From assembly GCA_003194525.1 (NCBI GenBank), contig NBIV01000113.1, positions 1-64,000 on the forward strand: a stretch of DNA of 64,000 nt, in the 5' to 3' direction. Each line of letters opens with the position of its first letter. Position 1 is the first letter of the stretch. Both the position numbers and the translations under genes were made by a program. Shown in pieces: positions 6,188-64,000 of the stretch. This DNA comes from Gracilariopsis chorda (lineage: Eukaryota; Rhodophyta; Florideophyceae; Gracilariales; Gracilariaceae). A model generated the notes under the pieces. That model ran no database searches. It was not told the DNA's origin and saw nothing but the letters and a program-made list of their open reading frames with translations.

Positions 6188-7028
6188 TGTGGTGCCAAAC
6201 CGTGAGCTAACGGAAGAAACCCACTACCGCGGACGGGACACCTCAAGGTGTTCAGCCTTGCTCCCCTGTATGGGGTAACTCAGCCGTAGAGCCCTCCGAG
6301 TAGTGGGCGCGTGCCGGGCGTAACTCTGGGCGACTACGTCCTGCCTTACAGACGGAGGTGTGTAGGATGGCTTAGAACCGGGGATCTGGATGCACCCGGC
6401 CATGGCTATCTTCGGGACCAGAATGGGCGTACAACGACGAGCCGCACTGCGGAGCACTGTCTTGTGACAACGATAAATGATCCCGAGACTTCAGGGCAAA
6501 CCTGGATACAGGGCGGAGTAAAATGAGCCGTAACACGGGTAAGTAGACCAAATAAAGAAACAAGTAAAGAAACAATTACCATTACTAACGGGTGGTCACT
6601 CCTCGGTGAGACGAGGGGGATAACTACACTGGAAGCCTTGAAGGGACCCTCCAAGAGTGGAGTTGTACCCGTAAATCGACGGTGAAGTTAGAGCCAAGTC
6701 GTCGTTGGAGTTTTACTTTTGGGCAGGAGCGGCGGCCGCCGCTCCCTTAAATACCATAGCTGAAAAACATTCAGTAAAATACACTAAGTATTCCGGCACA
6801 GCCGGGCAGCACACCCACGTGTGCTACTTGGCCCGTGGACACGGAGCACACCACTAGTCGGGCGCATCACGTCCCACGTATACTATTATTACCTTCTATA
6901 CAGAGGTACCCCCTAATGGGGCCGTCAGGTGACGCATACTCATATACACCCTATCCATCCCGGGGATACCGGCATCCCGTTATGAGAAACGGTTTGATCT
7001 CTTCGTCCTGAGGGCACATCGCACCACA
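6188..7028 (-). repeat. 3' LTR of Gypsy-A
   Basis: 841 bp, direct repeat of 16497-17319, bounded by TGTGGTGCC and GCACCACA on the plus strand. Relative to its partner it has an extra 32-bp block (6759-6790) and one fewer 12-bp unit in the AAATAAAGAAAC array near 6550. Confidence 0.93.
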
Positions 7029-7083: not shown

Positions 7084-8963
7084 ATGGGCGTACGTAGTCG
7101 AGACAACTCGAGCGAGATGACCAAAATATCGAAAGGGCAACGCGAACTCGCGCTTGTGCCCTACGAACCTTCTGCAAGGCATCCAGTCCCCTTCGCAATG
7201 AGGAACTACAACCATCCTCCGACCAACCCTTCCGCGGTGCCTTCGTATCTGCGCATTCCGCAATATCTGTGGCGTACTCTGGCTGCTCGGCTTTTTGTGA
7301 CCGCGCAACCACGGTTTAGCTCGGTGCCGTTGCCCCCTTCACTGTCGACTCTTCCACCGTCGTAGGCTCTTGTTGAGAACGTTCCCGCAGCTGCGAGTCA
7401 ACCGGAGCAACCGCATTTCCGGGATTGGAGCGAGGCAGCTGGCGCTGCGCCGGTGGCACCTAGCAGACAGTGGCCATCGTACGGGTCTCTCCGAATTCGG
7501 ACTCCTTCCATCCACTCTGAGTGGTTTGCCATGGCTCCATGGTTCGTCCCTGGTGCTCTTCGGGGCACTCCGCTGATCGACTCGTGCGCAGTCGATGGCA
7601 TCCTTCCCGGCGGGTTGCCGGTATCCTTTGTCCGGTCATGGGACTGGCGCGCACACATTGCGCTTCCCACATCGCTGTTGTGGTGGGCTCCGCATGAGTC
7701 GGAGTGACGCGCTCGTGACGATATGGCCCGACTTGGGTATCGCCGATTTCATCTGTTAGCCAACGAGATGCCAGTTCCCCCGCATTACGTGTTTGATGTT
7801 GCGTATTACCGAACATACGGAGAAGTGTCCTATGGTGACCGTTTGTACGGGTCTTGCCTGAGCTGGACCAATACGCTGAGAGCGTGCAGCCGTACCAGGA
7901 CCTGATCCTGTGGACCCGTCCGATTCTTCGGGCAGAAATTCGGTATCTCTGGAAAAGCTGGTGCTGTGAGTTGTTCGAATGGATCCGCTTCGTGCGGAAG
8001 CAACGTTCCCGACGGGGTCTCCCGGTTCCATACCAGCACATTGAGATCGAACGCCTCAATTGGAGGGCTTGGGATCGCTATGTTCCACTGCCAGTGTTCT
8101 GGCCGGCAGTAGAGTTCCCACGAGGGTGTAACGTGGAGTTACCTCCGTTTCTCACCTATGTGTACTCACGGTTCCTGAATAACCCACCTCGGGGTCTTTG
8201 AATTCTTCTTGCCACTGAGTAAACGGTCTGGATTGCCGCTTTTCTCCTGTGGGAGATGTACGACAAGTACTGACTTTGATTCTTGGCGGAGCTGCTCCGT
8301 CAGTCTATTCACTTCGTCGATCTCTCCGAGGTACTCGTTTCCGAGTGTAACGCGCATGGAGCGACCGGTTTGGTGGACATCATTGACCAAGTCGATTGGG
8401 GTCACGTTCCAGCCACGCAAGCGTCAGATGGAATTCGCCGCCGTTGGGACAAGTCTCCCGAGCGGAATGTCGCAGCTGGCAACTTCGTGTTCTTCGACCC
8501 ATGGGAATGGGAGTTCATCACCGCCACAGAACCGGGTCAACGCCGCCAAGCCAAGCGGATAATTCCGGACGGGAATCCATCGGGCTTCGTCTTCGTCAAA
8601 GAAGACAACGCCGAGGGAGCCACCGAAGCGGATGAGCCCATGGTGGATGGGAACGAGGATGTCTCGGAGATCGATATTACTGACGGCGTCGGGGCATCTG
8701 GTGGAGCGGGTGGTTTACCAGTGAGAGGACTCATAACTCCGGTGGCTTCGCCCTCGGTAGAAGCTTCGTGCAGCAGTGCCGACCTGCAAGTCGCGGTAGT
8801 ACGCCAGTTCCTTGCTGGGCTTGGAGTGCCCGTCCTTCCGACGGTGACTTCCCTCTCACAGTTGCAGGCCCTGGCCTCCGAGTACCTGCGGGGAGGTGGT
8901 GGTGGAAGTAGCCACGGCGGTTACTCCTCTGGCATGGGAGGCTCGTCCCCTCATATGGGGTAA
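7084..8963 (+). pseudogene. Antisense accessory gene (aORF) of Gypsy-A, broken copy
   Basis: This gene runs opposite to gag-pol, starting with an ATG at 7084 only 43 bp inside the polypurine tract. It is split by frame changes and stops into pieces at about 7084-7365, 7453-7707, 7723-7905, 7854-8201 and 8283-8963. The pieces align in order with the intact 554-residue protein at 31679-33343. Shared blocks are APWF, SWDWR, RPILRAEIRYL, PYQHIEIER, ELPPFLTY, AGNFVFFDPWEW and an acidic stretch with PMVD. The C-terminus becomes Ser/Gly-rich. I recognise no known domain. Conservation of the same blocks in a diverged sister element suggests a real protein used by this lineage. Function is unknown. 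Confidence 0.8.
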
Positions 8964-16493: not shown

Positions 16494-16496
16494 GTT

Positions 16497-17319
16497 TGTG
16501 GTGCCAAACCGTGAGTTAACGGAGGAAACCCACTACTGCGGACGGGACACCTCAAGGTGTTCAGCCTTGCTCCCCTGTATGGGGTAATTCAGCCGTAGAG
16601 CCCTCCGAGTAGTCGGCGCGTGCCGGGCGTAACTCCGGGCGACTACGTCCTGCCTTACAGACGGGGGTGTGTAGGATGGCTTAGAACTGGGGATCTGGAT
16701 GCGCCGGGCCACGGCTATCTCCAGGGACCAGAATGGGCGTACAACGACGAGATGCACTGCGGAGCACTGTCTTGTGACAACGATAAATGATCCCGAGACT
16801 TCTGCGCAAACCTGGATACAGGGCGGAGTAGAATGAACCGTAACACGGGTAAGTAGACCAAATAAAGAAACAAATAAAGAAACAAATAAAGAAACAAGTA
16901 CCGTTACTAACGGGTGGTCACTCCTCGGTGAGACAAGGGGGATCACTAGACCGGAGGCGGTGAGGGGACCCTCCAAGAGTGGAGTTGTACCCGTACACCG
17001 ACGGTGAAGTTAGAGCCAAGTCCCTCGTTGGAGTTTTACTTTTGGGGAGGAGTGGCAGCGGCCGCTCCCTTAAATACCATATTCCGGCACAGTCTGGCAG
17101 CACACCCACGTGTGCTACTTGGCCCGTGGGCACGGAGCACCCCGCTAGTTGGGCGCATGACGTCCCACATGTACTATTATTACCCTCTATACAGAGGTAC
17201 CCCCTAATGGGGCAATCAGGTGACGGATACTCATATACACCCTATCCACCCCGGGGATACCGCCATCCCGTTATGAATAACGGTTTGATCCCCTCGTCTT
17301 GAGAGCACATTGCACCACA
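16497..17319 (-). repeat. 5' LTR of Gypsy-A
   Basis: 823 bp, partner of 6188-7028. It carries three AAATAAAGAAAC-like 12-bp units at 16861-16898 where the other LTR has two, and it lacks the 32-bp block. Confidence 0.93.
17070..17076 (-). promoter_or_regulatory. TATA-like box in Gypsy-A LTR
   Basis: Sense-strand TATTTAA occurs here and at the matching place in the other LTR (6749-6755). It is the best TATA-like motif in the LTR. No transcription start can be seen from sequence, so this is tentative. Confidence 0.3.
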
Positions 17320-22655: not shown

Positions 22656-23482
22656 TGAAGTGCAACGCCCTCAGGGAGGGATTCTAGGTACTTGAACGTT
22701 TTCCCGATATTATCGGTTGTGTAGTGCGTGTATGAACTACGCCCCACAATGGTGGGTATGGACACGTGGGACACGGTTTTGGGTCAGTTGGCGGTTGGAC
22801 ACAGTAGTGGATGTTGCCACGAAATGTGGAGTATTTTAGTTAATATTATTTATTATTTTCACACCCATTTCTGGGAAGCTAGTACTTAGTGCGACGGCGC
22901 ACTGCCGTCGCACCAGTAAACCTTCCCCAACAAGGGACCCCAACCTGGGGAATTGGCTCTAGTTGTTGCCGCTTGCGCGCGTACTCTACTCCTCCTTGGA
23001 GGGAAACGCCGTGAACCACAGGACATCTAACCCCCTTGCACATCTAAAGGGACCCATCACTGGGAGTATAATTGTTCCAATTGCATTGGTGTTTCGCCCT
23101 GTATAGGGAGTCCTGTCCACCGGCATTGCCGTATCTGCCCGTCGCTCTCGCGACCCACTTCGTCCTCTCTTCCTCCTCTTCGCCCTTCCTTTTTCCCCTT
23201 TTTAGGGTAGTACCTCCCGCTATCCGCGGCCCTCGTGTGCGCATCCGCTCACACACCCCCACTTACGTGGAAAAATACCTCTACTGAGGATCACACCCCG
23301 CTCACGCGGATACCGATTCTTCGCCTTCACCTCCCTGCGCGAGTCGCGGCAGATGTCCCTGGTCTTACAAACCGGCTTCGCCGTGACACCTCTGGGAGGG
23401 CTCTACCCAACTGGGTTCACCTCGTGAGAGGAAGATCCCGAACGTCTTTCGGTGTTTTTCTCCTTTGGGGCATTGCAACACA
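22656..23482 (+). repeat. 5' LTR of Gypsy-B
   Basis: 827 bp from TGAAGTGCAACGCC to CATTGCAACACA. It contains an AT-rich TATA-like stretch at 22832-22859 and many short perfect inverted repeats. Short reading frames inside the LTR have no motif and are not considered genes. Confidence 0.96.
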
Positions 23483-23485
23483 AAG

Positions 23486-23507: not shown

Positions 23508-23587
23508 TTTTTGTTTTCCCTCTTACGAGGTTTGTTTTTATTTACCGGAAGTTCCGTGATCGTTTCCCGTCGTAACGGTATTTTCTC

Positions 23588-25762: not shown

Positions 25763-28700
25763 CTGAGGGAGTCTCCCCTTTGGGAGAGGCGTCCTCAAGA
25801 ACGAGGCTGTTGGCGCCCGAGGCGTCCTCGCCTCGCTCCCCGGTGAAAATCCTCTCGAGGAAAGACACCGCTGACGCGGACTCTGCGCACCTTGGTGTGT
25901 TGCGTCGCCCGTGGATACGGAGTAAAAATCCCCGGATTCCCGGTAGAGTCTTGGTCTTGGCCAAACGCAATTATAAGGTCTATGCCAACCTTGGCCTTGA
26001 TCCCCAGTTTATGGTGAGGTTTCTCACCGTCCTGGATACAGGTGCAGGCCCCAACTTCTTTGTGGAATCATTGTGACCCCCGCTTGTGCGGTCGCGTATC
26101 CGCTCTGACGCGGTCCCCGACATTTCAGATGCGAACAACAATCCGTTACAAACGGTGGGCACAGTGGACCTCGTCGTGAGACTTGGTACCTCTGTGGTGA
26201 AGTTGGACTTCATCGTTTGCCGTTCATTGGCAGCACCAGTGATACTGGGATGTGATTACTGCGACAGATTTGTCGACGCAATCAGGCCCCGCCTCAGGCG
26301 TGTAGAACTTGACGACGGATCGTCGGTTCCGATTGTTCGCCGCCCGCTAAAGCGGTCCTCTCGGAAACAAGTTCCGCTCCCTGCTGCGCAGGAACCACCG
26401 CCCGCGTCCCGCGAGTCCACCAAGCTCCGCGTCGCTGCTTCGGTTTCTATACCGGCCGAGTCCCAAGTCTGGGGGCAGGTAAATTCCCGTCAACACGGTC
26501 TTCGGGTTATATAACCCCTCGCCTCGTTGTACGAGAAATCCCAGCTGGCGCTGGCTAATGGAATTGTCTCCATTTCCCCGGATGTTCCTTTCCGGATATT
26601 GGTTGCCAACCTTGGCAAACACCCCCAGTATCTGGTAAAACACCAAGTAATTGGGAGTGTAACCCCCCATCCTATGGGAATGCTGCCGACGAAGATGACA
26701 GCCGCCGATGTACTCAGAGTTACCACCTCTTCTGAGGAGTTCGCCCCGCCGTCCGAAGACGTCAAGTCTAAGGAGGGGGAGGAAACCGCTACTTCAGCGT
26801 CGAACATACCGAGTAACTCGGAATTGCGAACCACACCTGTTCCACAGGACAATGCTCCATCGAGCAACGACCGGATTGATCCGGAAAAAGCACTTTAAGC
26901 GCTGGACTTCAGCCACGTGCCAGAGTCGCACCGCGACAAACTCCGTACTATGTTACGGGAATTCACCACAATGTGCGATGGCTCGCTTGGCGAGATTAAT
27001 GCAACGGAACACCGGATCGATTTAATCCCCGGTGCGCGACCGGTTGCACAACCCCCTTACAGGGCAGGTCCGAAAGCTCGGGAAGAGGAGCAGTCCCAAG
27101 TGGACAAGATGCTCCGCGCAGGTGTGATTGAGCCCGCTCAATCACCCTGGGCATCCCCAGTTGTACTGGCTTTAAAGGCCGACGGAACCTGGAGGTTCTG
27201 TGTCGACTACCGCCGGCTCAATGCCGTGACTGTTAGGGACACGTACCCCATCCCTCGTATGGACGAGTGCATTGACTCCCTTGGAGACGCCACCGTGTTC
27301 ACGGCCCTTGATGCCAATTGGGGATATTGGCAAGTACCTGTCAGACAGGAGGATCGCGACAAAACCGCATTCACCTGCCATGCAGGAACGTACCGCTTCA
27401 AGCGGATGCCATTTGGGTTAACCAACGCTCCCGCCACCTTTCAGCGTGCAGTAGATATTCTACTCAACCGCTTTAAGTGGCGGAGTTGTCTGGTCTACCT
27501 TGATGATATCATCATCTTCTCCAACTCGTTGGACGACCATCTCACTCACGTTCGAGACTTGCTGACCGTACTCCGCGATGCGGGAATTACCCTCAAGTTG
27601 AGAAAATGCGAGTTTTTCACAGATACTGTGAAGTATCTGGGTCACATTATCCGTCCTGGACGGTTAGCGATCGAGAAAGCTCGAGTCAAATCACTCGTTG
27701 AGGCGAAAGAACCCCGTACTCAAACGGAACTGCGCTCCTTTCTGGGGCTGGTCAACGTCTATCGACGGTTTATCCCGAACTTTTCGGATACTGCGGCGCC
27801 CCTGAACGCCCTGTTGCGAAAGGGGAACCCCCCAAAACTGGGAACATTTACGCCCGAGCAATCGGAAGCTTTTAACTCCTTAAAGGAGGCTGTCACATCA
27901 GCACCAATCCTACATATCCCAAAACTTGGGTTGCCATACTCCGTAGATACGGACTCGAGCGACTACCAAGTCGGGTGTGCTCTTTTTCAAACCACCCCCG
28001 AGGGGGAAGGACATCCAATTGGTTATTGGTCGCGCTCGCTCAATGTTCATGAGCGGAACTACTCCGTATCGGAGAAAGAGTGCCTCGCCGTCGTATGGGC
28101 GATGACCACTCTGCGCCCCTACCTTATCGGAATTCACTTCACCGTGTACACGGATCATTCCTCATTGAGGTGGTTGATGAATATTTCCGAGCCGTCGGGA
28201 CGCCTCATGCGCTGGAGACTCCGCCTCGCGGAATATGACTTTCAAGTCATTTATAAAAAGGGTGCGCAGAACACCCAGGCCGACGCTTTGTCGCGGTTAC
28301 CCACAAGTGGGGAAGCACTCCCAACGGAGGATGATGAAGTCCCATGTTTCATGGCCATAGACCCGGATGATCCGGAATATGCCGTCGAGGCTAGGCCAGA
28401 AACCTGGGACGAGGATGCTGATTTTGACGAACTACTCGCATCGCGAGATAAATCTGAGAACCCGTTACCGGGAAACTTTGTATCGGTATCACCGGAAGAA
28501 ATGATCCGAGAACAATTTGGCGACCCATTCTGTACGAGAATTCGTGCCCGTATCAACGGTGGTGAAGATCTCCCTTTCGGGGTAAACGACAAAGGCTACC
28601 TCGTAAGAAAGGTCGAAGCCCGCCCACAGATTGTGGTACCACATTCCCTGCAATCGCGGGTGTTACATCTATCACACTACGCCCCCATTGAAGGTCACCC

Positions 28701-31487
28701 AGGTGGGAGGAAACTCTACCTAACCCTGCGAAGGGATTTCTATTGGCCCGCAATGGCGGTGGATTGCTACGCAACTGTGCGGTTTTGTAGCGAATACGCG
28801 AAGAATCGCGTCAAGCTCCGCAAAAATGCGAAGAAGATGAAACTATTCCCCGCAAGGGCGCCACTCGAGTTTATCGCAATTGATCTTCTCGGACCACTAC
28901 TCACCACAAAACGTGGAAACAAGTTTCTACTTGTCATCACCGACCGCTTTTCTAAGCTGGTACGGACTGTCCCTCTTCGGAGGATAACCGCTCTCACGGT
29001 GGCCCAGGCTCTGGTGACGCACTGGAGTTTTGTCTACGGTCCCCCTGTGGAGGTGCTCTCCGACAACGGGAAGCAGTTCGTGAGCAAGTTCTTCCAGGAT
29101 GTTTGTCGCATCCTGGATGTCAAGAACTTGTTCACGACTACCTACCACCCCCAATGTAATGGGCAAGTTGAATGGTTTAACCGGACGTTACTCGCAGCGT
29201 TACGTTCCTACGTCGCAGACCACCCAAAGAACTGGGACATGTACGCTGATGCGTTAACCTACGCGTACAACACGCAGGTACACCGGACTACCGGAGTTTT
29301 GCCATTCGAGTTGGTTCTATCTAGAACACCCCCGCCTGTGGCGCTGGAACCCCAAGCTACCTTGGACAATTTCCCATCTGTGGGTATCTACCGGCAGCAA
29401 TGGAAGCCATGGCTTTCCAAGCTGGTCCCCGCTGCGCGGAAATCTATGGCACGGGCCCAAGCCGCTTACAAGCGGGATTTTGACGCTCGCTTGCGAGGAA
29501 AGACCACCCCGATTCGGGCAAATAACTACGTCTTCATCAGGAAGGAGTACTACAACCCGGAACGGGAGAAGCGTCACAAACTCTCGCCTGTGGCGGACCG
29601 ACCTTTCAAGGTCATCTCTGTTAACACCGACACTGTCGTGGTAGAGATGGGTGACACGCACGAACGGATTTCCCGTGATCGTGTTGTCCTTGCCCCTCCT
29701 CCCTCGTCAGAGGTAGTCCTAGATCCAGGCAACCCCGTTTCTACGGACTCTGCAACACCGGAACAATCCGGGAGTACTAGACCTACGGTACTAACACACC
29801 CCAGCCCGGGACTCTCAGACCTACCGACTCTGTCGGACTCACCGCCTCAGCCGGGTAATTCGGGCCCCTCAGCGCCCGCCCCTACCACGTCTGCCCCACT
29901 GGCGCGCATCTATACCCGCCAGGCGGGGAATGTTATCCCTTATCCCGCCGCTCCGTCTAAGGAGGGGGAGGAGAACACTCGTTTTCGAGGAACGATATCG
30001 CCGTCGCAAGGGGAAACACACCGTAACATACGGAACACTGACCGTGGAGCACGGAGTATGTCACGCGACACTAATCCCCCGTTCCCGGGCAGTGCAGTGC
30101 AACAGGAACCAGACGCGCAGGCCCCGCAAAAGCGGCAAATACACCGTTTGTCACGGGAAAACGAGAAGCCTCACTCCAATACCGCAGCAGCGGAAAGGCA
30201 ATCGCCCGATCCATCCCCGGAGGCATCGCCATAAACGCGGAAAACATACCGTGCTACACGGGAAGTTGAAGCGCAACTACCGCCCACCCCTGTCAGGGAA
30301 GGATCCCCGATAAGGGAGTATGGTGACGATTGCCCCCAATCCCCTGAGCAGGGCGATGCCTCGAAGCTGCCATTGGCGGAAGTCCCCGCGGAAGCGGTTC
30401 AATCAGGTCGATCAGACCCGCGCCTTGCGGAGAAGGGGCGCCCAGATACGCCGGCCTCACAGGGAAATACCCACACCCTTCTTGGAGAAAAAGGCAGCCA
30501 AGCCGCAGTCGAAGCTTTAAGCCCTGGCTCGCAAGCACCAGAAACGCCTCCCGTCGTTGACGGAATCGAAGCCCCAGCTACGGGGAATAATTTGCGCCAA
30601 CCCCCGCAACGCTGCGGCGAAGAACCGAGGAACTCGGGAATAACGCGCGCCATCGCACGCTGGAAACCGTTCGTACCGGACGCTTCTCCTCCTCATGGAG
30701 ATGGTGCACTGCGCTTAGCGGCAATCCCCCTGAAAAGGGTGTCATTGGCACCTGCCCGGCACCCCCCAAAGGGGAATTTTGACCAAAATACCGGTGTACC
30801 GGAGTTAGCCCCAGGCAACCCGTCAGTAGCCGGGGACACCACGGCATCGCCGGAACGTATGGTGCAGAGCGCTCGTGCGCCTGGCAGGGAGGCGGTTTGC
30901 CACCCAATCACCGTGTCGCACGGGACCCCCAGGGGATTGTGGAAATGCCGATTCCGCATTAGCGGTCATCTTCCCGCCAACTCGCGGTTCGTGAGCTCAA
31001 CCGCGAAGGCGGAGCCCAAGTCCTCCGCCGACTGGCGGTTCGCCCGCAATACCGCGAAAGCGGAAATGAACCTGCCCCAATGGGGAATGACTTGCCGGTG
31101 AAAACCGTGGCACCACACACCCTCTTGAGGGATATCTTCGCGCATGAGCAGCGGCCGCTATCACATCGCACGGCAACGCCGGAGTTATCGCCGAACACCC
31201 TGCTAAGGGACATTATACCGAACAGCGCGCAGCCCCCGCAAGGAAGTACAACCACCACCCGGCACGGCCGGCAGGTCTACGAACGAGAGTTCGTAGTAGA
31301 CCGACTTGTCGGACACACCTGGGACCAGGATGGTATTCTACAATACCGCGTCCGCTGGTACGGGTACGACCCCAGTGGGGATACGTGGGAGCCAATTGAA
31401 CACCTCCCACGGTCGCAGGTCCTGCGATACCACCGTCAAACGGGAACAGCAGCCCCAGCCACGCTGGTTAATGCCCAAGTTGGGTAA
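25714..31487 (+). pseudogene. pol: Gypsy-B pol: protease, RT, RNase H, integrase, chromodomain
   Basis: The protease frame is -1 relative to gag and overlaps its end (open from 25714), suggesting -1 frameshifting. Protease has FLTVLDTGAGPNF and PVILGCDYCDRF. A 1105-codon block to 30234 holds RT with intact YLDD (Asp196/197 counted from 26917), RNase H and integrase with D656, D716 and E752 in exact D-D(35)-E spacing. The integrase zinc half has lost one Cys (CSEY at 28786-28797; Gypsy-A has CSDC). A long Pro-rich linker leads to a chromodomain at about 31281-31439 (EFVVDRLVGHT, YRVRWYGYDPSG, TWEPIEHL), which probably steers integration to marked chromatin. Stops at 26074, 26512, 26896 and 30232, plus a frame change near 31050-31100, disable it. 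Confidence 0.94.
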
Positions 31488-31678
31488 CGTTGCCGCGCGA
31501 GCGGAGAGCGAAAGGAAAGGATAACAAGGCAGGGTCCGTCGAAGACGGGGAACTCAACCGACAAGCACCGTTCTAAACGGGAAAGTTTATTCAAGGGAGC
31601 AGCTAGCTCCCCACAATACTACACTACACTAACTGGCATAGCCAGGGAAAGAAGAACCAGGAAACTGGACTAGAGGTT

Positions 31679-33343
31679 TCACTCACCCCCATCGTCCGGG
31701 GCGTAACCCCCAGCAAGGCGGTAGGCCAACGCGTCCGCCATGGTGGTGACAACCCCCGATACCTCGGCAGCGCTAAGACCGGCACCCCGGAGGAAACGTG
31801 CGATGATTTCGTTTTCATTCGCCGTCACCCCGCTGGGGATAGAAGGTCCGGCACTTGCCGCCGAAGGGTCAGCAGCCGGCTCGGCCGGAGATACCCCCTC
31901 TGGGAAAGCTTCCGCGCTAGCGCCGGTTTCCTCTACGTCCATCTCCCCGGGTTCTTCCGGTTCGTTATCGACCATTGGGTCATCCCCGCCGTATGCACGG
32001 TAGTAGTCGTCAGAATCGACGTACCCCACCGGGTGGTCTTCCGGCACATGCCGGGGCGTATCGCGAAGCTCGCGCGCCTCCTCGAAGGAAATTTCCCGGA
32101 ACTCCCAGGGGTCGTAGTAGATAAAATCCCCCGCAAGGGCGGTGTTTCTACCGAGTCCCGGACCACCGGTGTTTCCGCTGCCGCCATCCAGACGACCGCT
32201 TTGCTCCAGCGGGACCTCACTCCAGCTAACGCTGTCGATGTATCCAAGTAATTGGAGGACCTCTTCATTGTTGGCCTGGCCCCCAAGGGGGATGCGAAGA
32301 TCCAGGTTTCGGATCGCTGCCCGCACACGTGGTTGAAGGAACCAGAGACGATACTGGTCGTACGCCTCGTTGAGGATATAAGCCCACTCCGTAACCACTA
32401 CAGACCACAACCCCGACCGGGGATCCTGCATGAGCAGCGAACCGAGGTACGTAAGTACCGGCGGGAGTTCTATGTAGCACCCCCGGCAGGATTCATGGAA
32501 GCGCCACCACTCGGGGAGTGCTACATACCGACCTAGTCGGTGAGGCGGCGCAATCCGCTCTATCTCCACGTTCTGATACGGGATAAAATACCCGAATCGG
32601 GATCGCCAACGCCGCTCATAGCGGATGAAGTTTTGGAGAAAGTTGGACCGGTATTGCCGGGGAAGGTACCTGAACTCCGCCCGAATAATCGGTCGCTCCC
32701 AGCAAAGGGCTTCTTGCCGCGCTGCGGGTAAATTCCTCCACGCGAGGGTGTCGAGGCGGAACAGGTTCTCGCCGTACCCAATCTCCCCGCGAGTGCGGAG
32801 GTGGCTCACGTCGAAGCCAAACTCCGGTGGGACCGGTACATCGAATGGAGCCCGGCTCTGCCGTTGATACGCCATGCGCGTCAACGCGGTCTGTGCCGCA
32901 GCGACGGTCTCGCCCGAATTTCTTCGGAGGTGGTGACGCGGAATCGCAATCCGGTGACGCCAATCCCACGAGGTGGTGACTGCTCTGGGCAGATCCCCCG
33001 GACGGGTGTCTGAGCCATCCGCATAAGCGGTGACCAATCCCTCATTGAGGACAGCGACCGGGTGGAACCACGGGGCAAGGCGCAGGCACGACGCGTGATT
33101 CCGACTCATCGGGTTGAGCCCCACCAGGGTGTTGTAGGTAAGCCAGTTGGACACCGGAGTGGTTCCGGAGGACACCACCGAAGGTGGTAGTGCGAAGGGA
33201 TGGTCGGCTGCAGCAGCCATATTCCCCGATTGTACCGGATTTCGATCGCCCTGAGGCAGGGGAACTGACCAGAAACCGGTGGTGTATCGCCCGAGAAGTC
33301 TCGGAGGTTGGCTGTGGTTGTTCATATTGTTGTGGTTGTTCAT
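31679..33343 (-). CDS. Antisense accessory protein (aORF) of Gypsy-B, intact, unknown function
   Basis: An uninterrupted 554-codon frame on the strand opposite gag-pol, with ATG at 33343 about 165 bp from the 3' LTR. It lies wholly between the chromodomain stop and the 3' LTR, so it is not a shadow of another gene. The N-terminus is Asn/His-rich. The middle (residues about 85-300) is rich in Trp, Tyr and Arg with blocks APWF, SWDWR, RPIIRAEFRYL, PYQNVEIER and ELPPVLTY. Residues 404-415 are AGDFIYYDPWEF. An acidic region around PMVDNEPEEPGEMDVEE precedes an Ala/Pro-rich linker and a possible C-terminal helix. Gypsy-A carries a diverged homologue at the same place. I see no signal peptide, membrane segment or known fold. 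Transcription could start within the 3' LTR on its antisense strand (inference). Confidence 0.85.
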   Translation of the reverse strand: MNNHNNMNNHSQPPRLLGRYTTGFWSVPLPQGDRNPVQSGNMAAAADHPFALPPSVVSSGTTPVSNWLTYNTLVGLNPMSRNHASCLRLAPWFHPVAVLNEGLVTAYADGSDTRPGDLPRAVTTSWDWRHRIAIPRHHLRRNSGETVAAAQTALTRMAYQRQSRAPFDVPVPPEFGFDVSHLRTRGEIGYGENLFRLDTLAWRNLPAARQEALCWERPIIRAEFRYLPRQYRSNFLQNFIRYERRWRSRFGYFIPYQNVEIERIAPPHRLGRYVALPEWWRFHESCRGCYIELPPVLTYLGSLLMQDPRSGLWSVVVTEWAYILNEAYDQYRLWFLQPRVRAAIRNLDLRIPLGGQANNEEVLQLLGYIDSVSWSEVPLEQSGRLDGGSGNTGGPGLGRNTALAGDFIYYDPWEFREISFEEARELRDTPRHVPEDHPVGYVDSDDYYRAYGGDDPMVDNEPEEPGEMDVEETGASAEAFPEGVSPAEPAADPSAASAGPSIPSGVTANENEIIARFLRGAGLSAAEVSGVVTTMADALAYRLAGGYAPDDGGE

Positions 33344-33495
33344 TTTTCCCTTTTGGAGGGTGGCTGTTGTTCTTGTTTATGCGCTCGATGAATCTGGTGC
33401 AGAGGGATTTACCGGAGAACCGGAGACAGAGCACGCGCTTTTATCACCCATTTTCGTCTGGGAATCCTCCGCTTCCGCGGTCGTTTTCCCGTCTT

Positions 33496-33508
33496 AAGAG
33501 GGGGGAAA
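33496..33508 (+). other. Polypurine tract of Gypsy-B
   Basis: AAGAGGGGGGAAA directly abuts the 3' LTR, the expected plus-strand primer of an LTR retrotransposon. Confidence 0.92.
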
Positions 33509-34335
33509 TGAAGTGCAACGCCCTCAGGGAGGGATTCTAGGTACTTGAACGTTTTCCCGATATTATCGGTTGTGTAGTGCGTGTATGAACTACGCCCCAC
33601 AATGGTGGGTATGGACACGTGGGACACGGTTTTGGGTCAGTTGGCGGTTGGACACAGTAGTGGATGTTGCCACGAAATGTGGAGTATTTTAGTTAATATT
33701 ATTTATTATTTTCACACCCATTTCTGGGAAGCTAGTACTTAGTGCGACGGCGCACTGCCGTCGCACCAGTAAACCTTCCCCAACAAGGGACCCCAACCTG
33801 GGGAATTGGCTCTAGTTGTTGCCGCTTGCGCGCGTACTCTACTCCTCCTTGGAGGGAAACGCCATGAACCACAGGACATCTAACCCCCTTGCACATCTAA
33901 AGGGACCCATCACTGGGAGTATAATTGTTCCAATTGCATTGGTGTTTCGCCCTGTATAGGGAGTCCTGTTCACCGGCATTGCCGTATCTGCCCGTCGCTC
34001 TCGCGACCCACTTCGTCCTCTCTTCCTCCTCTTCGCCCTTGCTTTTTCCCCTTTTTAGGGTAGTACCTCCCGCTATCCGCGGCCCTCGTGTGCGCATCCG
34101 CTCACACACCCCCACTTACGTGGAAAAATACCTCTACTGAGGATCAAACCCCGCTCACGCGGATACCGATTCTTCGCCTTCACCTCCCTGCGCGAGTCGC
34201 GACAGGTGTCCCTGGTCTTACAAACCGGCTTCGCCGTGACACCTCTGGGAGGGCTCTACCCAACTGGGTTCACCTCGTGAGAGGAAGATCCCGAACGTCT
34301 TTCGGTGTTTTTCCCCTTTGGGGCATTGCACCACA
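33509..34335 (+). repeat. 3' LTR of Gypsy-B
   Basis: 827 bp, the same length as the 5' LTR, with about eight substitutions (about 99% identity by eye), indicating a fairly recent insertion. It ends GCACCACA followed by the CCTTG duplication. Confidence 0.96.
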
Positions 34336-36369
34336 CCTTGTGGAAGATGGCTAGAACATTCTTGTTTGCCTCCAAGCTACCGTATGAACATCGAGCAGGA
34401 GTGAAGATTCCTTACACATTATGGTTCGGACGAGAACCAGACTTCACAAACTTATTGAAGTTCAGGCAAGAAGGCCACGCGTTCATATACAGGCCTGAAT
34501 CCGTCGCGAATAAGAAGTTACTACCACGCGCTATTCTTGGACACTTTGTGGGGATGCAGAGCCCGCGGACACTGTACATGATATACATCCCATCCATGGG
34601 AAAAGTAATAAAGTGTCGCGAGGCAGATGTTAAGGATACCAAGGAGTCCTTTCCTTCAATCCAAGACCTCATGGACTCTTCGTCTCTCAGACGATACGAA
34701 GCCGAGAAAACCATGGCTGGGATGATGAAGATCATCTAGATATTTCTATTCCTCATTGCTTTGTAGCAAATGCACGATCCAAAGATCTTGATAATGAAGG
34801 CAAAGTCTCCAATAGCTTTGAAGAAGCTAGAGTGATGCCAGGATGGGCAGAAGCATGGACAGAGAGTACGAAGAATGGTTAGAAAGAGGCACATGGAAGC
34901 TGATTGATAGAAAGCCTGGCATGAAACCCTTGCCATTCCTATGGAGGTTCTTAGCAAAATTACTAAGCTCCGACCTGCTGCGCATTCTTTCAAACGCACG
35001 TTGCGTAGAATGGGGCGACGTGCAGCGTAAGTACTTGGATTACAACCCAGCCAACTTGTACGCCCCAGTTGCCCGACTTGAACCCATTCTTCTTTTGTTG
35101 GAAACGGCTGCAGCTCAAGGCCTGCCACTAGAGACGATGAATATTAGATATGCATACATATACGGGGATCTAGACGAGCCTCTACTCATGAAACAACCCC
35201 AAAATGCTCCTAGATCATCATTTGTTCCTGGCAAGATATGCTTGCTCCTAAATTCAATATACGGCGCAAAACAAGCCAGGCAAATATGGGGATCCCTGAT
35301 GCAAAGGGAGCTATTGCGCTTGGAATTCAAGCATTTTATCACAGACAGCCGACTCCATATATAAAAGTCCAACAGCGGAACCTTGACCATCGTACTGGTT
35401 GTTGATGACCTATTGACATCTTCTAGCTCCTGATATATTCTGAAAGAATTCATGTCAGAGATGCAGAAGCTGTTCAAGGTTAAGGTTCTTGGAAAGACAA
35501 AACTTTTTGTGGGATACGACATAATGAGAGACAAGAACGGATTACAGGTACAACAAAGCAGATATATCGACAAAAAACTGCTAGAAAATGGTGTGGCCAA
35601 CTTCAACGTACAAGGAATTCATTAATATCCCTATTTGATATGAAAACACGTTGAAAGGACGAACTGCATGTTCCATCTGGAGTACATGGCCCTACCGGAA
35701 ATTGGTAGGATGTTTGATGTACTTGGCAGTCTCTTCGAGGCCAAACATCATGATTGCCACTTTAATGCTTGGAGGGCAGGTCAATGACCCATTCATGAGG
35801 CATTCTGGGCTTGCAGAAAGAGTACTGAGATACTTGAATGGTACAAAGGGTCTTTGTTTGTTATTTTCTGGTAATAATACAGCACCAATGGTGGCGTTCT
35901 GTAACGCATATTGGGCTGGTTGTAATGTGACGAGAAATTCTACGACTGGATTATTAATAAAGGTGAATGAGGCACCTGTCATGTGGACGACCAAAAAGCA
36001 AACCCTGGTTGCGCTGTCGTTTGGAGAGGCAGAATACACTGCACTGTCGTATTGCGGAAAAAAGTAACTTGGTTTTGTAGATTCTACTGGGAAGTATGCA
36101 ACGAAACAGCCCTGGAGGATGAATCTAAAATGTACCCCATCTAATTAGAAACGGAAAGTTCGACTGCTATGTCGATCATGAAGAATCAGATTGTCTCGGA
36201 AAGGCACAAACATAGCGCTCTGAAATATAATTACATAAAAGACCTGCTCGAGACCAGAATAATTGACGTAAAGTCAATAAAGACTGAAGTGCAAGCTGTC
36301 GACATAGTCACTAAGCTTGTGTTCTTTGAGAAACTCAAAAGACTGACCTTGTTTTGTGGCTTAATTTAA
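34336..36369 (+). pseudogene. Copia integrase end, RT and RNase H (right half)
   Basis: Coding resumes after Gypsy-B with the C-terminal part of the copia integrase (KIPYTLWFGREPDF, LPRAILGHFVG). RT follows, with NPANLYAPVARLEP, LETMNIRYAYIYGDLDEPL and LNSIYGAKQARQIW. The catalytic YVDD is worn to VVDD near 35398-35409. RNase H follows (YRKLVGCLMYLAVSSRPNIM, AYWAGCNVTRNSTTGLL, SFGEAEYTALSYCGKK). A terminal piece ends at 36369 (VDIVTKLVFFEKL). Frames change near 34740-34840 and at about 35360, 35430 and 36065, so the gene is dead. Confidence 0.88.
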
Positions 36370-37228: not shown

Positions 37229-40200
37229 TCAGGACAAGTGTTTGACCCAATCGGTTTCGTCTTCTGTAAAGCCGCGCCATTTTACTTGTAGCTCTACAGT
37301 TCCTTGATATCTTCGTATCTCAGTGAATGATTCCACGACAAGGTGTTCGCCACTTTGATACTGGAGATGTTCGAGGTTTTCTTCACGTACTTGATAGTCC
37401 GTCTTCCGGAAGAACTTTAAACGGTGGCCATGAACTTCCGTTTTCTTTCCATCTAAAAGGTTTTCGATAATAAATATGTAATCCGATCGACACTCAACAA
37501 AGCGGTAGGGACCTAACCACTTGAGAGATGGTTTCCTTGTGCGTTCATGCTGCATTATTCCTCGTAGAACAAAATCTCCTTCCGTAAAAGTGATAGCTCT
37601 AACGTTCGTCTTTTGAATGTGTGAGTCTACAGCAGAGCGGCGTTTCTTACCATAGCACACAGCGACGTCTTTGTGCATTCCGTCTCTAAAGCGTTACGCG
37701 TTGCTTGAATTGTTGACGCTGAGTGGACCGAATATCGCCAATGGAGTACAACTTCACGTCCTTACCGACCTTACGTGTAACTGAGGTAAGTGGACCGTCT
37801 TGAGGGTGTCCAGTGAGAACGATGAGAGGACAGCGGTATCCAAGGCGTTCGAAGATCGAATTGTTCAGGGCGGACTGTACTATGGGTAACATACTTGGCC
37901 AGAACTTGTGTGGGACCTGATACTCGGACAGCAGTGCTCTTGCTGCACGAAGCAGTTCTCGATTAACAACTTCGACTGTTCCATTTGACCAAGGACAGTA
38001 TGCCAGTGTAAAATGATGGGCCGAATAGGTTCTGTCCTTGAGTAGTCGAACTAATTCATTCTTGACGTGCGACACACGATCGAAAACCCAATGTTTTACG
38101 ACCCCAAATGCCGCAAACCACTTGATAAGAACGTCAGATACGGTTTCCGCAGTAGTGTCTTTGGTTAGCGTGAGCCGGACGTAGCCACTGTGATCGTCCT
38201 TGAGTACCAGGGCATAGATGTACCCATTGATCTCGGTCGACATGAAACCAAAATCAAAATAAAAGAGCTTGTTTGGTTCTACAGCGTGAAGAGCGTTTCC
38301 GAGTGGACGAGGTTCAATTTTCCCTGCTTCTCTACACAGACAGTGCAGACAGGAGTTTACGAACGATTCCACGTCTTCTGTCATTTTGTGCCAGGAGAAA
38401 TGAGCCTTGATAGACGTGAGAGTGACGCGCCGGCTACGGTGTCCCCTATGTCCTGTGTGGGCGATGATGATGATGCGGAGCATAAGATGTGCGTCATCAG
38501 ATGGTATCCAAATAACATCATTAATGTCTTTGAACCCTTGTTCTGTTCGCATGAATATACCAGGTTGATTCTGCTTCGATGATGATTGGTACTTCATGAT
38601 GTCGTTGATACTTGGCCAATCGAGCTTAGGATCGGTTCCAAGGTTGATGGGAGCACACATGAGTGACTTGGCACGCAAGACTTTTGTTGCTTCGACCTTA
38701 CGCTTTGCGCTTACAGCCCACCTAGTAAGCATGTCAGCCCATACGTTGTGTTCTCCTGGTAGATGTTCCACGACATATCGAAAAGCGCTGAGTTTGATTG
38801 CCCAGCGCAGGACCTTGCTTGCGGTGTGCTTCGGGATACCTGTGTTCTGTCCATAGGGATCATAGAGATACACAAGATTAGCGTGGTCCGTGAATATGGT
38901 TACTTCGCGGCCTAGTACCAGATAATCGAGACTGCACATTGGTTCGACGATGGCGTATCCTTCTTTTTCAGGTACTGACCAGTTCACGGATGAGCCAGAG
39001 AATACTACTGAGAGAAAACAGAGAGGTTCATGTCTCTGCTTTTCGATTTCCTATGATCGGTCTTCCGTTGGTACTTGTGTGAGGATAGCAGCCCAATGAG
39101 TATCTGAAGCCTCTGGGAAAAGACATAAGTTCTGCTCATGTTTTAGAAAACCGAGCTTTACAGAAGCAGTGAGTTGATCCTTGATGTCTGCGAAAGCTGC
39201 ATCATGAATTGCGCCCCACGAGGTGGTGATGGAAAGTTTGCATATTGCTTGCTTGATGCGTTTTTCAACCTTCTTGTAACACGATTTGAGCAAGTCGTGC
39301 TGGGGAGCGACGCGCTGTGAGTACGCAGGGATCGAGTTACGCATCCAGTTGGTTGCGCAAATAAACTGTTGTAGTTCATGAGCGAGAGTAGGCTTCTGCA
39401 TTCAGAAGAGTGATTCGAAATGCCTAGAATGGTATTGGAAGCCGTTTTTAGATATTTCACGTCCACAGAATTGTACTGTGGTGGCGAAGAGTCAGTTTCT
39501 CAGCATGAATCTTGGGCCCAATTTTGCTACACACAGTATCCATGGGCGAGGTCCAAATGGCCGAATCATACACTACCGGAGATGTACTGGAACTTAGAAG
39601 TTAGTTGAGGCATCGCCGTTTGACTAGGTACAGTCCTGGCATTTGGCCCACAGAGGTCCACAGTGAATCAGAGGGTTGAGGAACCGGGTTTCGGTACGGC
39701 GAGAGCTGGGCTTGCCCATCAAACGGAAGGAGGCTTGTGTATAGCGCCAATGGACACCAGTTCTCGTACTGTATTGATGATTAATTCGCGTTGTTGTGAA
39801 GCGTATCGTCTTTAGGGAGACCGATATGGTTTGGAGTTGGCTGTGGTAGTAATGAAGAGAGGTAAAACGCTAGCGTGAGGATCTGGACCGAGTTTGATAC
39901 GAAATACATCTCTGTATTTAACAAAAAAAAACCTTGATGCGATTGAGTCCTTGATCTGATATTCGATTCTTCTTTGCTTCCTCGATACGGTTCTTGAAAG
40001 CCTTGTTGATTTCTTTCTCTGAATCCTTACCTATGCCAGCTGCGAGGCATTCAGGTAGTTTGATAGGATCGTCATCAGCGTCCACTTATGAGAGTCCTTT
40101 ATATCTCGCGGCAGCGAGCTTGATCTTGTCCGGATCAATTTCGTTGACGTGTTTACCATGGATAAATGGGTGCACTGGGTGCAAATATTCGGATAAATCG

Positions 40201-40489
40201 AAACCGATTGTGTTTAGGAACGGCTGACCCAATACGATTTCATTGTCAACAATGACGAATTCGACGCTGCTGAATCTAACGGGAACGTTAGAACCAGGGA
40301 ATGAAATTGTGAAGTTCAGTTTGCCCATTGCTGACGAGTTGAACTTCGTATGGTGAGATTTGAATGCGCCCAGCAATTCAATCGGCTCTCGGAATGATTT
40401 GATCTCCAAAGACGGCTTTGCCTTCTTGACCTTGTCAAAGCTTGACACGTCGACGGCATTGAAATAAGAGCCAGAGTCGCCGAGGACAG
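37229..40489 (-). pseudogene. pol: Gypsy-D pol remnant with RT catalytic segment deleted
   Basis: Minus strand. Protease: LGDSGSYFNA near 40470-40490, then VLGQPFLNTIGFD. The RT N-terminus (about 39600-39880) reads REYA-like SQQRELIINTVRELVSIGAI, WASPALAVPKPGSSTL and FTVDLCGPNARTVPSQ, with stops at 39719 and 39668. After HLDLAHGY the frame jumps to GPKIHAEKLTLRHHST, so the stretch that should hold Y-x-D-D is missing. RT thumb and RNase H follow (PTLAHELQQFICATNWMRNS; FTDHANLVYL). Integrase (37686-38987) has an HHCC module (HTGHRGH ... CLHCLC), YFDFGF and VEVVNRELLRAAR. The final part (37229-37678) ends with a chromodomain-like HLVVESFTEIRRYQGTVELQ followed by VKWRGF. Confidence 0.87.
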
Positions 40490-41461
40490 TGTCGAATACA
40501 GTGTCCTCAATTTCAATCCGGAAACGTCCTTCTTCTGTTCGAGGTTGGGTGTCTCCGGATGCGGACTGTCAACTGACAGTTTTAGACTTTTTAGTTTTGT
40601 AATGTTCATCGAACAGATCCTTTTTCTGATCGTCAGAGGTGTGTTGGAAGTCCTTGAGATGATGCTTTTCGGCGCAGTCCGGGTTGGGCATGGATACGTC
40701 CACTCAATGTCTTTCCGTTTGCTACCTCGACGATCGTTTTTGTCCTTCTTTGTGGTACTGTCCGATTTTTCATCTTCATTCTTGCTACTTCGACTAGTGC
40801 GAGATTGACGGGTATTTCGGAGCTTGACTCGCTCTCCAGAAATTTCGGTAGGAGCGAGGTCAACTGCGAGACCCGCGACTTCGTTCTTGAAGAACTTGAT
40901 GTCGTACAGTTGAGATTTCGTCCAGCCTTGGCGTCGCATCTTGGTGGCCTCCTGTAGAACAGGATCTTTGAGCTTCTTTACTAAACGATCGATGAAGTTT
41001 TTAGAACGATCTTGGTCCTTGTGGACCTCTGACGAGTTGTTCTGGTCGACTGCAGTGATGAACTTCACGATAAAATTTGTTACACCTCCGGCAGGATCTC
41101 CCTTGTTTGCTTCATAGGTTACGAACTGTAGAGCAGAGTCGATGCGTTTGTAAACATCCTTCGGAGTGACGTTTGATGCCGTTTCGAATCAGCTCTGAAC
41201 GGCTTGAACTGTAGCGTCGTCTACTTTGTCAGCGTTTTGTATTTCACCCATGACAAACAGTGCATTAAGAGTCGTAGCATCCATGCAATCCTTGATCGTA
41301 GCGATGTGTATCTTGTCTGTACGATCCCTGTTAACATCGTTGACTTTGTTTTCGTATGGTGCGTATTCGGTTTCGAACTTGATCAAAGATGATTGGTCCA
41401 CCAGCTTCAGTGTTGGTGGTGTATCGAAAGCAATCACGCCATCGTTGCTTGCAGGTGCCAT
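40490..41461 (-). pseudogene. gag: Gypsy-D gag remnant
   Basis: Starts near 41461 (MAPASNDGVIAFDTPPTLKL) and runs to a TGA at 41189 that could derive from CGA. The same frame then continues through KFITAVDQNNSSEVHKDQDR and a Lys/Arg/Ser-rich segment (NTRQSRTSRSSKNEDEKSDS). A zinc-binding stretch CPNPDCAEKHHLKDFQHTS lies in a shifted frame near 40640-40690. It encodes the structural, RNA-binding polyprotein part of the element. Confidence 0.75.
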
Positions 41462-61408: not shown

Positions 61409-62216
61409 TGAAGTGCAACGCCCTCAGGGAGGGATTCTGGGTACTTGAACGTTTTCCCGATATTGTCGGTTGTGTAGTGTGTATATGAACTACGCCCCAC
61501 AATGGTGGGTATGGACACGTGGGACACGGTTTTGGGTCAATTGGCGGTTGGCCACAGTAGTGGATGTTGCCACGGAATGTGGAGTATTTTAGTTAATTTT
61601 ATTTATTATTTTCACACCCATTTCTGGGAAGCTAGTACTTAGTGCGACGGCGCACTGCCGTCGCACCAGTAAACCTTCCCCAACAAGGGACCCCAACCTG
61701 GGGAATTGGCTCTGAGCTTTACCGCCTCCGCGTGTTCTCAACTCCTCCTTGGAGGGAAGCACCGTAGTGTACGGAAGTTCACCCCCCTTGCACATCTAAA
61801 GGAGACCCATCATTGGGAGTACTAATTGTTCCAATCATATTGGTGTTTCGCCCTGTATAGGGAGTCCTGTCCACCGGCATTGCCGTATCTACTCGTCGCT
61901 CTCGCGACCCACTTCGTCCTTCCTCTTTCCCCTTTTTAGGGTAGCACCTCCCGCTATCCGCGGCCCTCGTGTGCGCATCCGCTCACACACCCCCACTTAC
62001 GTGGAAACATACCTCTACTGAGGATCACACCCCGCTCACGCGGATACCGATTCTTCGCCTTCACCTCCCTGCGCAAGTCGCGACAGGTGTCCCTGGTCTT
62101 ACAAACCGGCTTCGCCGTGACACCTCTGGGAGGGCTCTACCCAACTGGGTTCACCTCGTGAGAGGAAGATCCCGGACGTCTTTCGGTGTTTTTCCCCTTT
62201 GGGGCATTGCATCACA
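61409..62216 (+). repeat. 5' LTR of Gypsy-C
   Basis: 808 bp from TGAAGTGCAACGCC to CATTGCATCACA. It is homologous to the Gypsy-B LTRs with several substitutions and small indels (for example near 61715-61770 and 61920), so B and C are separate copies of one family. Confidence 0.93.
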
Positions 62217-62219
62217 AAG

Positions 62220-62241
62220 TGGTCTCCCGACCTAGAATCGG
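62220..62241 (+). other. Primer-binding site of Gypsy-C
   Basis: TGGTCTCCCGACCTAGAATC plus GG, 3 bp inside the LTR. It differs from Gypsy-B at two positions and from Gypsy-A at two. Confidence 0.8.
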
Positions 62242-62321
62242 TTTTTGTTTTCCCTCTTACGAGGTTTGTTTTCATTCACCGGAAGTTCCGTGATCGTTTC
62301 CCGTCGTAACGGTATTTTCTC

Positions 62322-64000
62322 ATGTCGAGAAATCCCTCCGACGCGGAGCCAGTGGTTACGCGTAGTCGCTCCCGCGACAACGCAGACACTTCCGAAGTTC
62401 GGTTCGTACCCCGTATCCCTATACGGACAAGTTCCAGCCATGCTGGCGCCGCTTCATCGCGGAATGATACCCCCGACCGGGAACCCCGGAACCTCCTTTT
62501 GCCCTCGTTGTCACCCCCGCAGGGGAATGCAGCATCGACTCCGGCTGTTGCCGCAGTGCCCCAGGCACCCCGGCCTGCTCCCGCTGTCGCGGCTTCAAGC
62601 CCCCGTGGAACGGGCGATAACACCACCCAGGGGACTTCCCTGGAATCCCAGGTCCGCGCTCTGTGGACCGCCCATGACACCCTTGTAGGGGAACTAAAAT
62701 CCCTCCAAGAGGTGGTCTCGGCAACCCCCATAAAGGAGGTCGCCGAGGAACTCCGTATTTTACGGTCTGACGTCAACTCCGTCTTGGAGAGTTTGGGACA
62801 ACCCGCCACCTTCATCGAAGGAGTTCAAGCCCGATTTGATCGGATTGGTGCCCGCCTGGAGACGCTGGAGCAGTTCGTCCTCATGGACAAACCCTCCCCG
62901 GCTGACCCAGTAAACGAGGCATCGCACAACGACCAGCTTGCTGGGAAGAAGAAACGCCGTCATCGACGGAAACATCACCGAAAATATTCGGACTTGGATT
63001 CTTTGACATCGTCGGACTCACCCCGAAACCATTCGGTTAGCTCGAGCTCCTCGGACTCCGACTCGGAGGACGAGAAGCGAGGCTACTCCTCCCGCTCGAA
63101 GCGGTCATCGGCCACTGAAGGTGTGGTCCGAACCCGCCAGAAGGGGAGAAGACACCCCGGTCTCCGGGAGTTGAAGCCGACAAACCCGGATTACCGGAAG
63201 CTTTTATCATACCGGTACTACCGGCTCGAAGATTCGTCACTCGGACGTACGCCCCGTGGTACGGGAAAGGTGCGAGAATGCATTAAGCGAATGCAGCTCT
63301 CGCTCCGCAACCAGTATTTTACTGGAGAGGACCCAGTCCTAGTACTGGATTTCCTATCCCGCTTTGTAGCGGAGGCCGATATCCTCGGTATGAATGAGGG
63401 ACAAGCCTATTTGGCTTTACCGTATTTCTTACGGGGAGTGGCGGAGGACCAATACACCTCTGTCAGAGGATCTTCTCGCGCCTCCGAGGGAGGAGTTACT
63501 TGCTGGCCGGAGGCTGTGCAGTATCTTCTGCGCTCCTACGCCACCAACACCGCTATTCAGCAGGCTATCCTCGCTTTGCGAGATACACGCCAGCGTGCTG
63601 GAGAGACCGAGACCGATTACTCGGTGCGCCTTAACAAGGCTTTCCACAGATGTGGTAACGCATACCCCGCTGGGGAGCGCAGTACCATGTTCATTGATGG
63701 TCTTGACCCGGCAATCCGGAGTTTAGTTACCCGTTATCGGGAGGACAAGCGAAGGATCACCTACCTCGAGCTGGTCCAACACGCTCGAGCGGAAGGGGAT
63801 GCACTTGGTGCAAGAACTCCGAACAATCGGTCTAAATCCGCCAAGGCGTTGTTGCTGGAAAGCGAAGCTTCCTCTCTCCCGCTCACCGCGGATGGGAACC
63901 CTGGACAGGGATTTGATACCGTGCATTTAGCGCAGGGGGATGGTGTGTCGATACCCACCAGTGAGTTACCGTCAACGACGGAGATGACCCATGATACGGG
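62322..64000 (+). CDS. gag: Gypsy-C gag, open to the window edge
   Basis: The ATG at 62322 starts a frame of about 559 codons that stays open to the last base. It follows Gypsy-B gag throughout: MSRNPSDAEPVVTRSRSRDN at the start, then a basic and Ser/Asp-rich region, then the capsid-like core (PYFLRGVAEDQYTSVRG; RLNKAFHRCGNA; FIDGLDPAIRSLV). The window ends about 30 codons before the position where Gypsy-B has its TGA, so whether this copy reads through to the zinc knuckle is unknown. No lesion is seen in the visible part. Confidence 0.92.
   Translation, partial: MSRNPSDAEPVVTRSRSRDNADTSEVRFVPRIPIRTSSSHAGAASSRNDTPDREPRNLLLPSLSPPQGNAASTPAVAAVPQAPRPAPAVAASSPRGTGDNTTQGTSLESQVRALWTAHDTLVGELKSLQEVVSATPIKEVAEELRILRSDVNSVLESLGQPATFIEGVQARFDRIGARLETLEQFVLMDKPSPADPVNEASHNDQLAGKKKRRHRRKHHRKYSDLDSLTSSDSPRNHSVSSSSSDSDSEDEKRGYSSRSKRSSATEGVVRTRQKGRRHPGLRELKPTNPDYRKLLSYRYYRLEDSSLGRTPRGTGKVRECIKRMQLSLRNQYFTGEDPVLVLDFLSRFVAEADILGMNEGQAYLALPYFLRGVAEDQYTSVRGSSRASEGGVTCWPEAVQYLLRSYATNTAIQQAILALRDTRQRAGETETDYSVRLNKAFHRCGNAYPAGERSTMFIDGLDPAIRSLVTRYREDKRRITYLELVQHARAEGDALGARTPNNRSKSAKALLLESEASSLPLTADGNPGQGFDTVHLAQGDGVSIPTSELPSTTEMTHDT

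Follow-up and report, generated by a model that had tools for sequence, protein, structure and literature searches.

Several long terminal repeat (LTR) retrotransposons have been described with an accessory gene on the strand opposite gag-pol, and the job of such genes is presented as still unsolved (PMC7264820, PMC11963269). The Retand lineage of plant Ty3/gypsy elements has antisense open reading frames (ORFs) with the TRP28 domain (PF04195), located between pol and the 3' LTR in all of its clusters, where this region is long; in the same account their function is unresolved and a regulatory role is proposed by the author (PMC11963269). Antisense accessory ORFs are also described for Grande (gene23) and for RIRE2-type elements of grasses, and the Grande gene is reported to have its own promoter for transcription and to produce a nuclear protein (PMC7264820). 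Boty/BcGypsy1 of the fungus Botrytis has the antisense gene brtn, and one consensus is reported without the beginning of the gene (PMC7264820, PMC8365987). HBZ is the antisense gene of human T-cell leukaemia virus type 1 (HTLV-1) (PMC11963269), and an antisense promoter is described in the 3' LTR of HTLV (PMC7264820). In the alga Ectocarpus, the DNA transposon Sola1-1 carries a ParB and methyltransferase accessory gene on its opposite strand, and proteins similar to these are reported for transposons of green and red algae (PMC12477816). The present analysis concerns an antisense gene of the LTR retrotransposon Gypsy-B in the red alga Gracilariopsis chorda, found in a stretch of 64,000 nucleotides (contig NBIV01000113.1, positions 1 to 64,000), which is referred to as the window.

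The antisense frame of Gypsy-B runs from 33343 to 31679 on the minus strand, has 554 codons without a stop and lies between the chromodomain and the 3' LTR, opposite gag-pol. A reading made earlier from the letters of the window (the sequence-only reading) had taken these limits as those of an intact gene. Its position, strand and open length held, but the whole gene is longer: among the 30 best B-family loci, 29 had a frame of at least 540 codons, and 25 of those 29 had exactly 595. The family start codon is present in the window copy at 33451 and is followed by an early stop that cuts off the N-terminal tail, and five codons are deleted in a conserved stretch. Its pol frames are likewise interrupted. 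The two LTRs are 99.0% identical over 827 bases (blastn), and the flanks show a 5-bp target duplication read from the sequence. The Chromo domain (PF00385) was matched in all three open pol 3' ends scanned (L004, L045 and L040), at residues 370-411 of the L004 pol 3' part with an E-value of 6e-10, and the broken window ORF at 30373-31101 gave no PF00385 match in the Pfam scan. The family carries its chromodomain at the integrase C-terminus, as chromodomain Ty3/gypsy elements do.

Genome searches covered the alga's own assembly (91.3 Mb in 1081 contigs). The chlorophyll-binding family had 15 matches in it, and one of these proteins was closest to light-harvesting chains of PDB entries 9kc5 and 7y5e (the latter from Porphyridium), other algal types ranking not far below, which by itself makes a red-algal host probable. 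A fungal host, to which CHAT/TPR genes had pointed, is weakly opposed: Fungal_trans had no match, but neither did its control. Three protein searches gave 302 listed matches, which merged to at least 283 distinct places with the antisense gene, some of them only fragments. No stop was present over the match in 63 of the 78 copies among the matches listed in the first genome search, a similarity-ranked set that is biased towards intact copies. The antisense gene lay tail-to-tail downstream of the chromodomain on the opposite strand in 113 of 150 listed chromodomain matches, at a gap of 158-810 bases (median 346), and the same-strand orientation was found in none of the 150. Fifteen of the 37 chromodomain places without a listed partner were fetched, of which nine carried the gene whole or in part and six were without it; five of the remaining 22 were matched by the listed part of an exact 30-mer search (compared by eye). 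The gene or part of it was therefore found at no fewer than 127 of the 150 listed chromodomain places (113 + 9 + 5). In the intact copies L002 and L004 the start codon and the LTR edge are 56-57 bases apart, a distance that includes the polypurine tract; because it is so short, the antisense RNA would start inside the 3' LTR, and an antisense promoter there is likely.

Six subfamily representatives, labelled B (L002), C41 (L065), A2 (L035), C74 (L063), C50 (L064) and L045, had genes of 594-630 codons whose proteins were 33-54% alike; A3 (L040) was near-identical to A2. Each of the six antisense frames contained 0 stops over its 594-630 codons, and the other five frames contained 7-34 stops each. 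In a protein alignment of eight rows (the six representatives, A3 and the window copy, P0001), 82 columns were invariant, and 81 of these fell in residues 114-481.

The substitution pattern points clearly to purifying selection on the antisense protein. The core ratio of nonsynonymous to synonymous changes (dN/dS, omega) between subfamilies was 0.10-0.39 (Nei-Gojobori; 18 of 20 pairs, the other two being saturated). The final maximum likelihood (ML) omega over 498 gap-free codons of the six subfamilies was 0.036 (MG) and 0.033 (GY), figures that are safe only as far below 1 because synonymous sites have reached saturation between subfamilies and the GY fit had one branch at its bound. Among 25 intact B copies, pN/pS was 0.32 and ML omega 0.42 and 0.50, values lowered because the copies were chosen as similar and intact (the choice was restricted to the top 30 in a ranking by similarity and to frames of 595 codons). 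Changes common to at least two of these copies comprised 26 synonymous and 16 nonsynonymous (omega 0.21) and singletons 70 and 114 (omega 0.57), the higher singleton value being what near-neutral mutation after insertion would produce. The 3' slice of pol in 18 of the same B copies gave 0.375 and 0.70. When the same DNA was read in the other five frames, the ratios were at least 0.99 in four; the fifth, null frame -1, which is the sense frame with coincident third positions, gave 0.57 and 0.30 and is full of stops. A dN/dS near 1 and a frame held open by codon bias of the opposite strand had been named beforehand as grounds for doubt; neither was found, the opposite strand being non-coding, and the lineage-specific protein under selection that the sequence-only reading had proposed is supported by this selection, the gene being widespread in the genome.

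Pfam searches of the antisense proteins gave nothing convincing, and the TRP28 domain PF04195 was not matched in the eight members scanned (hmmscan, E up to 1). In the same scan, DUF6220 appeared in two of the eight members at E 0.09-0.14 (best 0.093), far below its cut-off, and was rejected. Searches of PDB sequences returned nothing significant (best E 0.58 with one protein and 1.7 with a profile), and no relative of the antisense protein was found among PHROGs, plasmids, viral contigs and prokaryote contigs; the eukaryotic genome covered by the search for relatives was the alga's own assembly. The earlier statement that no known domain could be recognised agrees with the Pfam, PHROGs and PDB sequence searches. 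The N-terminal tail of the protein is of low complexity, and its core is rich in Trp and Arg, with a basic middle (22 positive and 14 negative charges in residues 246-400 of the B protein) and an acidic later part. A simple hydrophobicity scan of the six proteins showed no clear membrane segment, the top 19-residue means being 0.95-1.65 in stretches that were not N-terminal.

With respect to the described systems, the architecture fits that of an antisense additional ORF between pol and the 3' LTR (aORF-3R), as in Grande, RIRE2, Retand and Boty. The ORF is antisense to gag-pol between pol and the 3' LTR in the window and in the 113 paired chromodomain matches, it is present in most family copies with one gene-less branch, and it is conserved at the protein level with an omega below 1 and no higher than that of the pol 3' slice, at an identity below that of gag and reverse transcriptase (RT). 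Retand has its antisense ORFs in the same place, but the present lineage carries a chromodomain and is unmatched by PF04195, and by these features it falls outside the definition of Retand, which is described as a non-chromovirus lineage of flowering plants (PMC11963269); this was judged from domains. The chromodomain Gypsy lineages of Ectocarpus are reported to fall outside the chromovirus clade (PMC12477816). Grande gene23 and the RIRE2-type ORFs of plant hosts (PMC7264820) and brtn of a fungal element (PMC7264820, PMC8365987) are likened to the algal gene by architecture, and the likeness to HBZ, a regulatory antisense protein gene near the 3' end of an LTR element, is one of working mode only. 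Sola1-1, which is also algal, likewise codes its accessory gene on the opposite strand (PMC12477816), but it is a DNA transposon, and the antisense protein analysed here had no Pfam match to ParB or methyltransferase. The antisense protein thus appears to be a new protein family within a known architecture, which suggests that such an arrangement may have evolved repeatedly. A search of the open literature returned no paper recognisable as dealing with an antisense gene in a red-algal LTR element, which does not prove absence. In this algal chromodomain lineage a protein without known relatives takes the same place; the gene has hundreds of copies in several deep subfamilies, and the lineage also includes a natural branch without it.

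Counterparts were present in the other two gypsy elements of the window. The earlier claim of a decayed homologue at the same place and strand in Gypsy-A was upheld by tblastn (7435-7872 and 7896-8828 on the plus strand, 34-35% amino acid identity, E 2e-57), where the homologue is split over two frames with several stops, and the motifs APWF, SWDWR, RAE(F/I)RYL, PYQ(N/H)(V/I)EIER, ELPP(V/F)LTY and DPWE(F/W) that had been listed were all visible in the alignment of the two. The same reading had held that the two elements were otherwise strongly diverged, and here the reverse was found: amino acid identity between Gypsy-A and Gypsy-B was 65% for RT/RNase H, 49% for gag and 66% and then 41% for integrase, and the 34-35% of the antisense protein makes it the least conserved of the parts compared. 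For Gypsy-C, which runs past the end of the window, the gene had been suggested as a check and was present at about 70270-72051 of contig C113 (L081) with a broken frame. A 12-mer, CAAATAAAGAAA, stands in three copies at 16859-16897 within the 5' LTR of Gypsy-A.

Descent of the gene with pol was compared over seven rows: L052, Gypsy-A and all of the labelled representatives except C41. The RT and antisense trees both grouped A2, Gypsy-A and L045 together and B with C50. Mostly shared descent with pol, the antisense gene evolving faster, is moderately supported but not proved.

Four of the six gene-less places found were B-family copies (L070, L071, L075 and L079), and the other two were L067 and L078. 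In the first three, one common junction takes out almost all of the gene. The four copies formed one clade (support 0.996) in an unrooted tree of 30 sequences, and this clade adjoined L009 and the window copy inside the gene-bearing range. The gene-less junction had at least 73 exact matches in the genome and a 30-mer inside the gene at least 211, both being lower bounds from two different patterns that allow a rough comparison, with L070 and L079 outside the 73. The pol frame is open over 1,875 codons in the gene-less copy on contig C546 (L075) and over 1,885 codons in a gene-bearing copy on C23 (L022). The gene sits at this position in the other subfamilies too, which makes loss simpler than gain, and loss by deletion in the gene-less branch is supported but not proved. 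At least 73 copies lack the gene by exact junction match, and pol is open in C546; the gene is therefore dispensable in cis for amplification. Absence from other family members, a further doubt attached to the sequence-only reading, applied to this derived branch, which that reading had not foreseen, and to L067 and L078, the gene being otherwise widespread. In L079 (contig C222, 31700-33930) the gene-less junction is related but has about 60 additional bases, and it may reflect a step in the deletion of the 73-copy branch that came earlier or took place separately. At L078 (contig C124, 182390-184500) the chromodomain end matches the C74 subfamily at 99.6% identity along 232 bases, and from about base 729 an open gag-like frame stands where the antisense gene would be.

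On balance, we regard the frame as a genuine accessory gene carried by a chromodomain Ty3/gypsy lineage; its product more likely than not acts in trans, most plausibly as a regulator linked to nucleic acid or chromatin. A separate antisense mRNA would start in the 3' LTR and run towards pol. The protein made from it would be soluble, with a loose tail at its N-terminus, a core rich in Trp and Arg (about residues 110-480), an acidic stretch and a short segment at the C-terminus. It would work in trans for the whole element family, because the gene is under long-term selection and yet dispensable in cis, and copies without the gene would use the product of complete copies. Our leading guess for its role, made by analogy only, is that it regulates expression, RNA handling or integration by way of nucleic acid or chromatin. 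As a more tentative extension, the gene-less branch with its open pol may be a cheater on complete copies, sharing a trans-acting product unlike any protein in the libraries searched; if true, producer and cheater retrotransposons would live side by side in one genome. Gene-bearing and gene-less copies of one family make the function directly testable.

Several results weigh against this reading of a trans-acting regulator. Apart from the saturation, the branch at its bound and the choice of similar intact copies already given with the omega values, the closest pair, A2/A3, had a core dN/dS of 0.99. The RT and antisense trees conflict on C74 and L052, and the correlation between the two identity matrices is weak (r 0.21, exact Mantel p 0.26). 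A thriving gene-less branch would equally fit a gene that is dispensable. In four of the six proteins scanned no simple basic nuclear signal was found, and the net charge was negative in all six.

Among the alternatives, a self-limiting regulator was considered unlikely: the antisense RNA or the protein would dampen the element as double-stranded RNA or as a repressor, and the gene-less branch would have multiplied by escape. Pairing of antisense RNA with element RNA into double-stranded RNA has been proposed for plant elements (PMC7264820), and the size of the gene-less branch is in keeping with escape. Selection at the amino acid level points instead to a protein and not to RNA alone, and the exact matches inside the gene outnumber the gene-less junctions, roughly, by their two different patterns. 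Moreover, a gap of about 195 bases lies between the B-family antisense frame and the pol end, so overlap with the coding sequence of pol RNA would require read-through. A structural or integration cofactor, packaged with Gag or acting as partner of the chromodomain integrase and supplied in trans to gene-less copies, was held to be equally doubtful. The gene does adjoin chromodomain pol in the 113 listed matches, and its product has a conserved core and no clear membrane segment, but no significant similarity to any PDB chain was found. It would also be unusual for a protein to be packaged when it is made from an antisense RNA of its own. An env-like or cell-to-cell protein was judged highly improbable: the gene sits between pol and the 3' LTR, as plant env-like ORFs do (PMC7264820), but it is antisense, not sense, the hydrophobicity maxima of the simple scan are not N-terminal, and the env-like reading was rejected, since sense orientation is lacking and no clear transmembrane segment was found in that scan. 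That no gene exists, the frame being open by chance or through codon bias of the opposite strand, can practically be dismissed. In its favour, the sense frame with coincident third positions has an equally low ratio; against it stand the stops in the five other frames of all six subfamilies, the protein similarity between subfamilies and the ratios of the other four null frames.

The coordinates of the features in the window are shown in Table 1.

Table 1. Features of the three gypsy elements in the window
Feature	Position	Strand	Basis or remark
Gypsy-A, whole element	6188-17319	-	
3' LTR, Gypsy-A	6188..7028	-	repeat with 16497-17319
Decayed antisense homologue in Gypsy-A (element reads on -)	7435..8960	+	tblastn to 7435-8828; stop-free pieces to 8960
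5' LTR, Gypsy-A	16497..17319	-	repeat with 6188-7028
Gypsy-B, whole element	22656-34335	+	
5' LTR, Gypsy-B	22656..23482	+	blastn 99.0% to 33509-34335; TG...CA ends
gag ORF, Gypsy-B, 576 aa	23588..25318	+	49% aa to Gypsy-A gag
pol RT, RNase H, integrase, Gypsy-B	26917..30234	+	Pfam RVT_1 2e-36, RT_RNaseH 7e-36, rve 4e-11
Chromodomain end of pol, Gypsy-B, start estimated	31290..31484	+	tblastn with L004 pol 3' part, matching 30744-31484
Antisense accessory gene, open 554-codon part	31679..33343	-	family and selection analyses
N-terminal part of antisense gene, severed by early stop in window copy	33344..33451	-	alignment with L002
Polypurine tract adjoining 3' LTR	33496..33508	+	read from sequence
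3' LTR, Gypsy-B; presumed antisense promoter site	33509..34335	+	blastn; promoter presumed from short start-codon distance
Gypsy-C 5' part (LTR and gag)	61409..64000	+	94.9% to Gypsy-B

The gag ORF of Gypsy-B gave no convincing Pfam match, and Rfam gave no match within the window. A copia-type RT fragment (34843-35364) directly follows Gypsy-B, and a further gypsy pol fragment lies at 37686-41068 on the minus strand, beside which no significant antisense homologue was found by tblastn with P0001. At 57994-58127 two arms of 67 bases each form a perfect, spacerless inverted repeat, some 600 bases past a 1081-codon ORF (54146-57391) in which a YqaJ-like nuclease domain was matched (E 2.7e-7). The repeat may represent the end of a transposon, a hairpin or a fold-back in the assembly. 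A CHAT-domain ORF (49954-50970, minus strand) adjoins twelve 138-bp repeats (51811-53471) coding TPR repeats, and the two (49954-53484) possibly form one large TPR-CHAT gene.
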